Origin: an uncultured bacterium
Lineage (GTDB): Bacteria > Bacteroidota > Bacteroidia > Bacteroidales > Muribaculaceae
Assembly (NCBI GenBank): GCA_945612775.1
Contig: CALZAF010000008.1
Span: 1-37,044 of the forward strand
DNA length: 37,044 nucleotides
Direction of reading: 5' to 3'
Position 1 is the first letter of the stretch. Every line of letters begins with the position of its first letter. The position numbers and the translations under genes are program-made. Shown here piece after piece: positions 33,823-36,949 of the stretch. The notes beneath the pieces are model-generated. The model saw only the letters and a program-made list of their open reading frames with translations, had not been told where the DNA came from and made no database searches.

Positions 33823-34209
33823 ATGTGGAGTAACATATTTTTAACCATCGCGCTTCTCATTATCTCAAATGTGTTTATGACATTTGCATGGTATGGACAC
33901 TTGAAATTGCAAAATATGGGCATCAGCACAGGATGGCCTATCTATGTGGTGGTGCTTGTGTCGTGGGGAATTGCATTGTTCGAATATGCATTTCAAGTGC
34001 CAGCCAATCGAATAGGATATATCGAAAACGGAGGTTCTTTTTCGCTTATTCAGCTTAAGGTGATTCAAGAGGTGATTACGCTCACCGTGTTCACCATTGT
34101 TGCTACACTCTTGTTTAAGGGTGAGTCGCTACGCTGGAATCATTTGGTTAGCTTCCTGTTCCTGGTTGCAGCTGTTTATTTCGCCTTTATGGATTCTTCG
34201 ACCAAATAA
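33823..34209 (+). CDS. DUF486 family membrane protein
   Basis: 128 residues, four predicted membrane helices. MTFAWYGHLK, SWGIALFEYAFQVPANRIGY and IQLKVIQEVITL are the conserved DUF486 blocks (small DMT-like proteins). Function unknown; half-size DMT proteins often dimerise. It starts 8 bases after the Ntn-hydrolase gene and so is coupled to it. Confidence 0.85.
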   Translation: MWSNIFLTIALLIISNVFMTFAWYGHLKLQNMGISTGWPIYVVVLVSWGIALFEYAFQVPANRIGYIENGGSFSLIQLKVIQEVITLTVFTIVATLLFKGESLRWNHLVSFLFLVAAVYFAFMDSSTK

Positions 34210-34221
34210 TTGTCAGCTGCT

Positions 34222-34695
34222 ATGCACTTCGGCTCATTTAGCATCACTTCGTCGGTATATACCAAGCTCGTTTTTCGTGCTTATTTAATGCGATATTGGT
34301 GGCTTTATGCTTTGCCGCTTGCTGCGCTGATTGCTCTGACATTTTATAATATCAATTTCATCTACACCATACTCGTGCTGTGCTTCATAATCTATCCCAT
34401 GGCAATGATTATGGTGTACTTTTGGTATCTACTAACCAAAGAAATAAGGTGGTCGATTCTCGAAAAGGAGATGACTGCCGATGCGAGTGGGATAAAGCTC
34501 GATTTTGAGGATTTTTCACAATCGCTCAAGTGGAGCGAGTTCTCAGGCTATACCACCACAAGCAAATATCTATTACTGAACTTTGGAATCCGACGGTTTA
34601 CATATTTTGTAGTTCCATTCGATGTTTTTAGCGATAAAGAACAGTTGCGAGAGTTTGTCGCGCTGCTTAACGATAATGGTGTGCATCTTTCGTGA
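34222..34695 (+). CDS. YcxB-like membrane protein
   Basis: 157 residues from ATG 34222, the first ATG after the DUF486 stop; an in-frame TTG at 34210 is less likely. Two hydrophobic helices (about residues 24-65) are followed by a cytoplasmic domain of about 85 residues with the pattern ITADxxGI...SLKWSEFSGY...YFVVPFDVFSDKEQLREFVALL. That is the YcxB C-terminal domain as I know it. Role unknown. It is the last gene of the LysE-Ntn-DUF486 series. Confidence 0.72.
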   Translation: MHFGSFSITSSVYTKLVFRAYLMRYWWLYALPLAALIALTFYNINFIYTILVLCFIIYPMAMIMVYFWYLLTKEIRWSILEKEMTADASGIKLDFEDFSQSLKWSEFSGYTTTSKYLLLNFGIRRFTYFVVPFDVFSDKEQLREFVALLNDNGVHLS

Positions 34696-34747: not shown

Positions 34748-34773
34748 TGTAACATTTTTGAGGCTTGTTCGTT
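34748..34773 (+). promoter_or_regulatory. Likely ECF-sigma-type promoter of the sigma operon
   Basis: TGTAAC (34748-34753), a 16-base spacer with a T-run, and CGTT (34770-34773). A -35 with the AAC core plus a -10 CGT(T/C) is the general layout of ECF-dependent promoters, so the sigma factor probably drives its own operon. No TAnnTTTG box is seen here. A GGAGAG ribosome site follows at 34792-34797, one of the few in the window. Confidence 0.55.
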
Positions 34774-34802
34774 AATGTGATGAAAACCTACGGAGAGAAC
34801 AA

Positions 34803-35303
34803 ATGGATTATAAAGAATTTGAGCAAATAGCGCCAAAATTGCGCGCGCTGTCGCTTCGAACATCGAAGATAATGGGACTTTCGACATTCGATGCCGATGA
34901 CATAGCCCAAGATGTGCTGCTCAAAATATGGCAGATGGGCTCTGATTTGCATAGATTTAGTTCTCTCGAGGCTCTCACAGCTGTTGCCACTAAGCACATG
35001 GCAATCGATTTATACCGAGTGCGAAAGAGATCGTTGCCTATTGCCGATGAAACGCTATCGATACTCGTTGACAACGATACACCTTTGCGGCAAATAATCA
35101 ATGATGAAACCGATAGGTGGATTGAAGAAAAGACTCGAGCCTTGCCCAGTAAAGAGCACACCGTGCTTAGGCTCCGCCAGGTAGAAAAGCTTGAATATTC
35201 CGAGATTGCCAAGTTGATGGGCATCGAAGAAACGTCGGCACGAGTGTTGCTTTCGAGAGCAAGAAAACATCTATTACAACAATTTAACCAACAATTGAAA
35301 TGA
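34803..35303 (+). CDS. ECF-type RNA polymerase sigma factor
   Basis: 166 residues, only regions 2 and 4. Region 2 (about residues 10-75) has DADDIAQDVLLKIWQM (core binding) and ATKHMAIDLYRVRKR (-10 recognition). Region 4 (about 110-165) has LPSKEHTVLRLRQVEKLEYSEIAKLMGIEETSARVLLSRARKHL, the -35 helix-turn-helix. It has a recognisable ribosome site and a likely self-recognised promoter. Its stop overlaps the start of the next gene (ATGA), which encodes its presumed regulator. Confidence 0.93.
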   Translation: MDYKEFEQIAPKLRALSLRTSKIMGLSTFDADDIAQDVLLKIWQMGSDLHRFSSLEALTAVATKHMAIDLYRVRKRSLPIADETLSILVDNDTPLRQIINDETDRWIEEKTRALPSKEHTVLRLRQVEKLEYSEIAKLMGIEETSARVLLSRARKHLLQQFNQQLK

Positions 35304-35965
35304 AAGACGAAAAACGACATATAGCTACACTACTTAATCGATTTCTCGAGGGTGAATCTACACTCGCCGAGGAAGAACAGTTGGCGCAATATTTCGCCAC
35401 TCATTCTGTTGACCGCGAATGGGATCCATATAAGCAGATGTTTGCCTACTTCGATTCGGGTATGGACGACACGTCTTGTGCCAGCAAGCCTAAGATAGTG
35501 ATGATGCCATGGCGTAGGGTGATAGGCATCGCTGCCTCGGTGGCAATAGCAGTAGGCATAGGTCTAAGTGCCATTTACTTCAACTTTAGAAATGGAGATC
35601 AAGATGTGCCAGAAATTGCCGACATTACGATGGCCAATGCCGGAATCGAAGACTGTCAAGACAATAATGTGTCAGTAGCTACTCTTCATCCCCAAATAAT
35701 TGCTGAAAAACCATTGACAGTGAATAATCGTGTAAAGCAGCGAGCTACAACTGAAGAAGAAGAGGCAGAATACCGAGTCAAAGTTGCCGAAGAAGAATAT
35801 GCCCAGCGAAAGGCTGAAGAAGAACTTTGGGCTGAAAATGTGATTGCCGTTACATACGCGCTTCAAGAGCAGGAATTATTGGAACTTCAGAGGCAGATAG
35901 ACATGGAATATGAGCAGAAATATTTGGCAAGTATGCCTGCACCTCAGGTAATTGAGGTCCCATAA
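35300..35965 (+). CDS. Putative anti-sigma factor, single-pass membrane protein
   Basis: 221 residues. The cytoplasmic N-terminus (residues 1-70) has LLNRFLEGESTLAEEEQLAQYF and a W-x-x-Y-x-x-M-F-x-Y-F-D pattern. I associate that with membrane proteins that follow sigma genes in Bacteroidota. One membrane helix lies at about 73-94. The outer part contains a long charged coiled coil (about residues 150-205; EEEEAEYRVKVAEEEYAQRKAEEE). It lacks the HxxxCxxC zinc motif of ZAS anti-sigma factors. The ATGA overlap with the sigma gene supports a paired role, but anti-sigma activity is inferred. Confidence 0.72.
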   Translation: MKDEKRHIATLLNRFLEGESTLAEEEQLAQYFATHSVDREWDPYKQMFAYFDSGMDDTSCASKPKIVMMPWRRVIGIAASVAIAVGIGLSAIYFNFRNGDQDVPEIADITMANAGIEDCQDNNVSVATLHPQIIAEKPLTVNNRVKQRATTEEEEAEYRVKVAEEEYAQRKAEEELWAENVIAVTYALQEQELLELQRQIDMEYEQKYLASMPAPQVIEVP

Positions 35966-36004
35966 AATTATAAACTTAGAAATAAACCATAAAACAATAC
36001 AGTT

Positions 36005-36868
36005 ATGAAAATACGAGTTGAATCATTAATTTTGGCAATGTTGGCAGTGTTTACCTGCTATGGTCAACAATCAAATATTGAAAGCGCTTTCGAGAAAATC
36101 GAAAAGTCGAAGTATATCTATAGTTCGGAAAGCACTTCATGCACCAACGATGATGATAACAGCAAAACTTCGGTTCTAAAAATAAGAAGATTTAGGATAC
36201 CCGTCTCGAATGCCAATCTAATCGAGAATACCACAAATGCCTTTGAGAAAGCCACAGGTGCCACATTCTTGGCTCAGAAGAACGAAGATAGCAGGGAATC
36301 GTATCAAATATCTATTGACAGTAGAAATTCCATCCGGATAGGAGGTGAAGGTATGAACCTGTATGTTGCTTCATTCTCCGATGATGCCGACGATAGTTAT
36401 AGAAAAGCCTACGCAATAGAATGGGAAAATGCCAATGGTGATACGATAGAGGGCAAAACGGTGTATGCTTATAGCCCAAAACCACAATCGTCAAGTGATG
36501 ATTTGAATTCTACGCTCAACAATGCTATGAGAGTGCTAAATGATGCACAATCGAAGGTGAATTCTATGAATACTTATGTTTTTAGCGGCTCTTTAAGTAG
36601 TATGGATTCATCAAGTTGGTTGTCAAAGTTCGTTTTTTATTGCGAAGGCATTGAGGATAGTGTTGACTCGTCGAGCATACTTACGGCTTATGCTAAGAGT
36701 TTGTGCAAACTCACACAGGACTGCAGTATGCTCGAAGACTATGAGATAGAACTTGCATTAGAGCAGTTGCGGAGTTTGATTGGAGAATTATCGAAGTCGA
36801 AGGTGTCGATAGTAGTGCAAGGTTTGTTGAAAAAGGCAGAAAACAATCTGGTTGAGGCTAAAGAATGA
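36005..36868 (+). CDS. Periplasmic protein of the sigma operon, function unknown
   Basis: 287 residues. The signal peptide ends near FTCYG, so the mature protein begins QQSNIESAFEKIEKSKYIY. The first half (residues 20-160) reads as an alpha/beta domain that may belong to a Bacteroidota DUF such as DUF5024; I am not sure. The second half is Ser/Asp-rich and then helical (residues 165-287). It is 39 bases after the membrane protein gene, and the order sigma / membrane regulator / exported protein suggests it is a sensor part or a target of that system. Confidence 0.7.
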   Translation: MKIRVESLILAMLAVFTCYGQQSNIESAFEKIEKSKYIYSSESTSCTNDDDNSKTSVLKIRRFRIPVSNANLIENTTNAFEKATGATFLAQKNEDSRESYQISIDSRNSIRIGGEGMNLYVASFSDDADDSYRKAYAIEWENANGDTIEGKTVYAYSPKPQSSSDDLNSTLNNAMRVLNDAQSKVNSMNTYVFSGSLSSMDSSSWLSKFVFYCEGIEDSVDSSSILTAYAKSLCKLTQDCSMLEDYEIELALEQLRSLIGELSKSKVSIVVQGLLKKAENNLVEAKE

Positions 36869-36921: not shown

Positions 36922-36949
36922 AAATTGTGAAAATAATGCTGTAACTTTG
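36918..36949 (+). promoter_or_regulatory. ssrA promoter
   Basis: TTCG (36918-36921, one mismatch from TTTG), a 20-base spacer and TAACTTTG (36942-36949). The mature tmRNA begins about 47 bases later, leaving a short 5' extension for RNase P to remove. Confidence 0.65.

Follow-up and report, generated by a model that had tools for sequence, protein, structure and literature searches.

We propose that the operon at positions 34748-36868 of a DNA stretch from an uncultured Muribaculaceae bacterium (GenBank assembly GCA_945612775.1, contig CALZAF010000008.1) is an autoregulated extracytoplasmic function (ECF) sigma factor operon of a type recurring across the Bacteroidales. We place the probability of this reading, together with the working proposed for it below, at roughly 0.78 on sequence evidence. 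The stretch analysed, hereafter the window, is 37,044 nt long and is one whole contig of a 2.65 Mb assembly (261 contigs, 93.75% complete). The operon contains, in order, a promoter-like site, an ECF sigma gene, a membrane protein gene and a gene for a probably exported protein (Table 1). CGTT of the promoter-like site ends 29 nt before the sigma ATG (34803), the membrane protein open reading frame (ORF) overlaps the sigma ORF by 4 nt, and the third ORF follows after a gap of 39 nt. A first-pass annotation, made from the letters alone, had reported a TGTAAC-N16-CGTT site, an ECF sigma gene, an overlapping membrane protein gene and a third gene. We found each of these where it had been placed, and that account of the operon was largely right.

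The sigma factor passed the general NCBIfam ECF model (sigma70-ECF, TIGR02937; 63.6 bits, cut-off 42.9), which confirms its assignment. It also matched Pfam Sigma70_r4_2 (49 bits) and, under the cut-off of 24, Sigma70_r2 (18.6 bits). Its score against NF058625 (sigma_PG0214, the SigCH equivalog model) was 130.7 bits on the protein and 130.3 bits in a genome scan, at a cut-off of 130. Because this is barely above the cut-off and a second sigma factor of the same genome (contig C225) scored 127.9 bits, the NF058625 label is no proof of orthology to PG0214. The best named matches to the sigma alignment were metagenome assemblies labelled Porphyromonadaceae, Prevotella and Muribaculaceae. In a family sample of 149 genomes, the window's included, 24 had a sigma match at E ≤ 1e-20.

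We observed that the promoter-like site recurs upstream of related sigma genes. The 160 nt upstream of sigma were scanned in 24 family relatives, which are every sigma match in the family sample at the same threshold minus the window's own (23 genomes; upstream identity 85% for L015/L052 and 52% for L060/L062). TGTAAC-N15-17-CGT was present in 10/24 (shuffle mean 0.03) and TGTAAY-N15-17-CGT in 14/24 (shuffle mean 0.11; reversed pattern 0/24). As a control, 513 further ORF starts in the loci were scanned, of which 4 had the TGTAAY form. Three further relatives carried TGTTTAC-N14-17-CGT, which was noticed on inspection, and 7/24 had none of these forms. An additional set of 30 sigma loci, from which six were left out (L033, L034, L036, L038-L040) and in which L016 had no sigma start, gave the TGTAAY form in 5/20 (shuffle mean 0.08). 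Across the order, 14 of 29 sigma upstreams carried TGTAAY-N15-17-CGT, all as TGTAAT and none as TGTAAC (shuffle mean 0.07; reversed 0/29). Order-wide loci L200, L202, L214 and L222 are loci L011, L012, L013 and L017; L012 is counted in two promoter sets, and L011, L013 and L017 contributed to building at least one of the profiles used here.

Nine operons, termed type B, encode the same long exported protein as the window with a different type of sigma factor. All nine carried GGTRAT-N17-YGTC upstream of sigma, a descriptive count, and none carried the TGTAAY form (upstream identity 59% for L099/L101). The type B element was absent from all 46 upstreams of type A, the window's type (window and one duplicate included). 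A different sigma type is accompanied by a different promoter element in the same position, as self-recognition predicts. The first-pass proposal of a self-recognised promoter is therefore supported by conservation across genomes and by the different element that accompanies a different sigma type, and we propose that TGTAAC-N16-CGTT is read by the operon's own sigma factor. Separately, in two operons of the closest relatives, L112 and L118, an inverted repeat, GACGCAAAA ... TTTTGCGTC, lies shortly before the sigma start at the expected place of the promoter and may be a terminator or an operator.

The membrane protein has a single hydrophobic segment, starting at residue 74 by hydropathy, and the zinc anti-sigma motif HxxxCxxC is absent from it and from all 15 members of its alignment. 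Both observations agree with the first-pass description of a single-pass membrane protein without that motif. Matches to the protein (E 1e-5) were found in 29/149 family genomes, the window's included. Pfam placed no family on it at E 0.1 (no FecR, no FecR_C and no DUF4880 match), and nine weak Pfam families occurred among the 15 alignment members, one member each, so that no family is common to them. Several NCBIfam models matched some of the 15 members: a general anti-sigma model (3 members, best E 2.8e-5), CU044_5270 (6 members, 6.2e-6) and SrfA (5 members, 0.0059). None of these three models matched the window's own protein.

In an AlphaFold2 model, N-terminal helices span residues 2-16, 22-34 and 39-52, with ten-residue mean pLDDT values of 92-97 over residues 1-50. 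Beyond this domain, the model shows a poorly predicted linker, a helix at 72-100, a second poorly predicted stretch and a long helix at 143-211. Past the inner membrane it holds helices and disorder only, in a part that would comprise 129 periplasmic residues by inferred topology. No templates were used for the models of the exported and membrane proteins, whose input alignments held just 9 and 13 rows.

A9, a profile covering the N-terminal part together with the membrane helix, matched 52/119 Bacteroidales genomes, the window's included; true FecR proteins are among its weakest matches. Frames of 320-415 residues held many of the weaker ones. Two that we checked were FecR by Pfam, and A9 aligned to their first 110-120 residues (E 2.2e-12 and 5.5e-12). 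FecR N-termini bind their sigma factor. The best reason for calling the membrane protein an anti-sigma factor is therefore its FecR-type N-terminal domain. By profile comparison, this domain is of the FecR kind and the periplasmic domains of FecR are absent. Taken with the place of the gene behind the sigma gene, these data suggest that the membrane protein is probably an anti-sigma factor.

We examined the 29 strongest A9 matches from other genomes as order-wide loci. All 29 had an ORF matching the sigma profile directly upstream of the A9 protein. The next gene, assigned with profiles built here that include signal peptides, was DUF4252 in 22 loci, DUF6108 in four, DUF5024 in two and unassigned in one. 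At its own cut-offs, Pfam placed DUF5024 in L124 and L130, DUF6108 in L011 and L122, and DUF4252 in L131. Judged by gene order and family content, the operon represents one form of a module found repeatedly in the Bacteroidales with different exported partners. Among the matches listed from the open-licence literature, we found no description of the three-gene module as such; that literature mentions DUF4252, and we found no mention of DUF5024 or DUF6108 in it. The window's own genome holds two further loci of similar layout. On contig C225 (1355-3041; L097), an NF058625-like sigma gene is accompanied by genes for a membrane protein and for a small exported protein, in which the plug domain of TonB receptors is recognised (25.6 vs 23.9 bits). 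On contig C4 (54212-55721; L098 1713-3222), a sigma gene is accompanied by a 135-residue membrane protein and a protein that is Spy-like by eye, with no confirming match.

The third protein is probably exported, as judged from its N-terminus and its homologues. The N-terminus is moderately hydrophobic (19-residue mean 1.4), and the columns of residues 21 and 22 hold Ala and Gln in 12 of 13 rows each, a signal-peptidase-like pattern at which the window has Gln-Gln. Matches (E 1e-5) were found in 19/149 family genomes, the window's included. Twenty loci carried the long protein, one cut by a contig end (the G117 match was left out and L109 was included via its sigma gene). In 18 of the remaining 19, the window included, sigma stood two genes upstream with the membrane protein between; at L107 the membrane protein was upstream of the long protein and we found no sigma ORF.

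The first-pass annotation had called this an exported protein of unknown family. That can be amended in part, since its N-terminal half is a distant relative of DUF5024. The full protein scored 12.7 bits against Pfam DUF5024 (PF16427; E 0.16, residues 22-93), and the gathering score of 25 was not reached. With signal peptides cut, hhalign compared the N-terminal half with DUF5024 at a probability of 87.2% (E 3.9e-6), and none of five further profiles (the protein's C-terminal half, DUF4252, DUF6108, sigma and anti-sigma) exceeded 3.6% (DUF4252 0.1%). Pfam gave no DUF4252 match on the exported protein, and in this the operon differs from the SigCH type. The AlphaFold2 model, moderate in quality (mean pLDDT 73.9, pTM 0.48), has an alpha/beta domain at residues 36-160, a low-confidence stretch at 162-197 and four helices at 200-287. 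In the window's variant of the module, the exported protein joins a predicted helical domain to its DUF5024-like half. The C-terminal half recurs on contig C46 of the same genome (14808-15230; L096; 48% identity to residues 136-284), in a copy truncated where the contig stops, so a second such operon may be present in this genome.

Two broader assignments for the exported protein were tried and dropped. A single superfamily of DUF4252, DUF5024, DUF6108 and the exported protein was suggested by hhalign probabilities of 47 to 97% with signal peptides. It was abandoned because, once these were cut, the sole surviving link was that of the exported protein to DUF5024 (87.2%; DUF4252-DUF6108 10.7%, DUF5024-DUF6108 9.8%, DUF5024-DUF4252 0.2%). 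A named fold was likewise dropped, as structure matches were weak and the C-terminal helices resemble many unrelated bundles. Foldseek returned nothing at E 0.001 or better for the model, and VIA-align gave Z values of 5 to 7 for the N-terminal domain, where Z under 8 may mean just a shared arrangement. Its rows include DcrB, SciW, LpqN, MTC28, PsbP and PA94, which have a Mog1/PsbP-like arrangement in common. A profile search with the exported protein, and another with the membrane protein, gave no trustworthy natural relative of solved structure, and the best match for the exported protein was a designed protein (E 4.6e-5).

We compared the periplasmic part of the membrane protein between operons with and without the long exported protein. 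Its median length was 128 residues in 13 type A operons and 134 in nine type B operons, compared to 81 in 39 other operons, with partly overlapping ranges (Mann-Whitney p 7.8e-6 and 1.1e-5, shared ancestry ignored). One type A row, L121, with a periplasmic length of 51, comes from an ORF that was called incorrectly and was kept in the counts. Between types A and B, hhalign gave 1.7% for the N-terminal domains and 0.2% for the tails, hence no detectable kinship; between N-terminal domains of the window's type and those of the other operons it gave 99.4%. Homology of the type A and type B periplasmic parts was thus unsupported and set aside, which leaves the length contrast alone. From the hhalign and length results together, two different sigma/anti-sigma heads accompany the same exported protein and have tails of similar length, a pattern that fits a working contact between the tail and the exported protein.

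The first-pass annotation had proposed a genome search with the promoter pattern as a way to list targets. We ran this search, and it yielded no gene-preceding site besides the operon's own. In the assembly, TGTAACN15-17CGTT had 10 matches (36 for the reversed control) and TGTAACN15-17CGTC had 2 (33 for the reversed control). Enrichment of the bare TGTAAC pattern across the genome was therefore rejected. A third pattern, TGTAAYRWTTN11-13CGTY, had 3 matches, and it is the only form in which plain TGTAAT was sought in this genome. Together the three patterns gave 14 distinct sites. Other than the window's site, 12 lay inside ORFs and one (L199) overlapped the end of an opposite-strand gene.

A wider regulon test used 14 other genomes, picked because their operon carries the element. 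TGTAAT-N16-CGTCWT had 22 matches there compared to 4 for the reversed control: 10 at the operon, 10 inside ORFs and 2 intergenic. The 10 at the operon are expected because of how the genomes were chosen. Each of the two intergenic matches lies ahead of an ABC transporter ATPase gene, and these two genes are related and have similar surroundings. TGTAAT-N16-CGTC stood ahead of such a gene in L237 (1501-2473; a permease follows), in L242 (1501-2469) and, by an orthologue check, in L257. We found 12 orthologues in 20 genomes, and 3 of 10 readable upstreams had the element; because the idea had arisen from two of these three sites, the independent count is 1/8. The window's genome had no orthologue at E 1e-60. 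The order-wide sigma type may have this ABC transporter ATPase gene as a second target. As far as the tested patterns can tell, the circuit appears narrow and mainly self-directed.

These data can be assembled into a working model of the operon. At rest, the FecR-type three-helix N-terminal domain of the membrane protein would keep the sigma factor bound at the inner membrane. The protein's periplasmic part (129 residues), perhaps along with the exported protein made with it, would register a change on the periplasmic side; the membrane protein would then be loosened or destroyed and the sigma factor freed. The freed sigma factor would read TGTAAC-N16-CGTT, and all three products would rise. 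The outcome would be a pulse of exported protein, with newly made inhibitor shutting the switch again. We infer envelope sensing by the operon from topology only.

The same sigma/anti-sigma pair could also serve an exported protein that is output only, a periplasmic protective factor like Spy behind CirYZ in Phocaeicola vulgatus. We regard this as a credible alternative whose chances fall somewhat short of even. As no other site found in the assembly precedes a gene, the third gene is the only visible non-regulatory product; spy is reported to be co-transcribed with cirYZ (PMC13114119), and the trio on C4 shows a similar arrangement with its Spy-like protein. However, the third slot is filled by few families in 28/29 loci, and operons with the long exported protein have a longer periplasmic part (medians 128 and 134 vs 81). 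Both findings point to a tighter link with the membrane protein than a mere output would require.

In E. coli, RseB protects or masks RseA, next to RpoE, until it binds something else. By analogy, the exported protein may be a periplasmic co-regulator that shields the membrane protein until bound elsewhere, a tentative reading to which we give a little over one chance in three. The order of parts is the same as in rpoE-rseA-rseB, sigma and the membrane protein lie directly upstream in 18 of 19 long-protein loci (window included), and periplasmic length tracks the form of the third protein across two sigma types. However, the length contrast is a correlation whose p-values ignore shared ancestry, and the type A and type B periplasmic parts have no detectable kinship (hhalign 0.2%). 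No RseB structure was among the matches listed for the exported protein.

Several points weigh against the reading of an autoregulated ECF operon. The TGTAAY element is missing in 10/24 family relatives and in 15/29 order-wide loci; some start codons may be misplaced, because starts were called by rule. The type B pattern was written after its nine sequences had been viewed, and the 29 order-wide loci are not a random draw, a few having been used for profile building. The class I anti-sigma domain (ASDI) is described as a three-helix bundle, a linker and a fourth helix (PMC7406223). In the model of the membrane protein, three helices and a linker are present before the membrane and the fourth helix is not. 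Structural matches to the N-terminal domain were weak (RsiW, Z 3.3 over 56 residues at 6.1 Å). The Bacteroides housekeeping −7 element is TAnnTTTG, and an assignment of the promoter-like site to the housekeeping sigma factor, with CGTT there by chance, is very improbable: TAACATTT in the site loosely resembles that element and TGTAAC also lies within TGTAACTTTG at 36940, a possible housekeeping promoter, but CGT at 15-17 nt from the hexamer recurs in relatives and type B operons have another element pair at N17 spacing.

The operon lies near the end of the contig, 176 nt from its last position. Upstream on the same strand are a YcxB-like membrane protein gene (34210-34695) and a small transporter gene of the DMT type (33823-34209). 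The contig end (36998-37044) resembles the start of a tmRNA gene, and the TGTAACTTTG run at 36940 lies ahead of this tmRNA-like sequence. ARAGORN and Rfam reported nothing for the tmRNA-like contig end, presumably because the gene is truncated there.

Table 1. Features of the ECF sigma operon in the window, with the basis of each assignment.
Feature	Coordinates	Strand	Basis
Promoter-like site of ECF type, TGTAAC-N16-CGTT (TGTAAC 34748-34753, 16 nt, CGTT 34770-34773)	34748..34773	+	Read directly in the sequence
ECF sigma gene, 166 aa	34803..35303	+	Pfam and NCBIfam matches
Single-pass membrane protein, probable anti-sigma factor, 221 aa	35300..35965	+	One hydrophobic segment; sigma-adjacent N-terminal profile
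N-terminal three-helix domain of the membrane protein, FecR-type, residues 2-52, proposed sigma-binding part	35303..35455	+	Model and profile A9
Predicted membrane helix, residues 72-100 of the membrane protein	35513..35599	+	Hydropathy and model
Long helix, residues 143-211 of the membrane protein, periplasmic by inferred topology	35726..35932	+	Model
Probably exported protein, 287 aa	36005..36868	+	Hydrophobic N-terminus, homologues, operon context
Alpha/beta domain of the exported protein, residues 36-160, distant DUF5024 relative	36110..36484	+	hhalign and model
C-terminal helical domain of the long form of the exported protein, residues 200-287	36602..36865	+	Model (four helices); partial second genomic copy

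The closest characterised relative is the SigCH (PG0214/PGN_0319) operon PG0214-PG0218 of Porphyromonas gingivalis, whose sigma factor falls under the same NCBIfam model. Its third gene is DUF4252, whereas the window's is the long DUF5024-like form. PG0214 and PGN_0319 are names of one gene. They stand at the same place in two ECF factor lists (PMC9862357). The PG0214 sigma gene, the putative anti-sigma gene PG0215 and the adjacent DUF4252 gene PG0216 were jointly raised in one mutant (PMC10101095), and SigCH has been described as acting on cdhR and hmuYR too (PMC5607195). A second P. gingivalis locus, PG0985-PG0987, has a sigma gene, a hypothetical gene and a DUF4252 gene in a row (PMC10434189), and a PG0985 mutant showed poorer growth and survival with hydrogen peroxide (PMC9862357). 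We liken this locus to the window by gene order, not by sequence, and its third gene is again DUF4252.

In P. vulgatus, deletion of the anti-sigma gene of the CirZ/CirY system is reported to raise its own operon (PMC13114119). We liken CirY/CirZ-spy to the window by layout, with an ECF sigma factor, an anti-sigma factor and a co-transcribed periplasmic protein; its third protein is the chaperone Spy, unlike the window's DUF5024-like long form. Other Bacteroidales pair an ECF sigma factor with a membrane anti-sigma factor that reaches the outer membrane (PMC13114119, PMC13088901). The window's protein is set apart from these by its predicted topology, with a single helix in the inner membrane and 129 residues beyond it in the periplasm. 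It shares a FecR-type N-terminus with FecI-FecR systems; unlike them, it lacks the FecR and FecR_C domains, and no TonB-dependent receptor was found among the three upstream genes scanned. E. coli RpoE-RseA-RseB has the same order of sigma factor, single-pass anti-sigma factor and soluble periplasmic protein, and we saw no kinship of the third proteins.

A relative in P. gingivalis (SigCH/PG0214) is already known and partly studied. What is new here is the view across the order, the recognition of the FecR-type head, the finding that third proteins are exchanged and the promoter pairs that match sigma types. These features raise the possibility, which we consider unlikely on balance, of a largely unnamed Bacteroidales signalling class, in which a FecR-type anti-sigma head carries a short periplasmic tail of its own and works with a dedicated soluble sensor in the periplasm, encoded by the adjacent gene, in place of a TonB receptor. 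In such a class, the sensor (DUF4252, DUF6108, DUF5024 or the long form) would be exchanged together with the tail, and the sigma factor and its promoter would change as a second unit. Naming the module would link DUF4252, DUF5024 and DUF6108, families of unknown function, to one regulatory circuit and would give a promoter with which to list targets. A coevolution study reports a class I anti-sigma gene in the neighbourhood of only 6% of Bacteroidetes ECF factors, compared to an average of 32% (PMC7406223). If the proposal is true, this signalling class could explain part of the phylum's ECF factors without a recognised class I anti-sigma neighbour.

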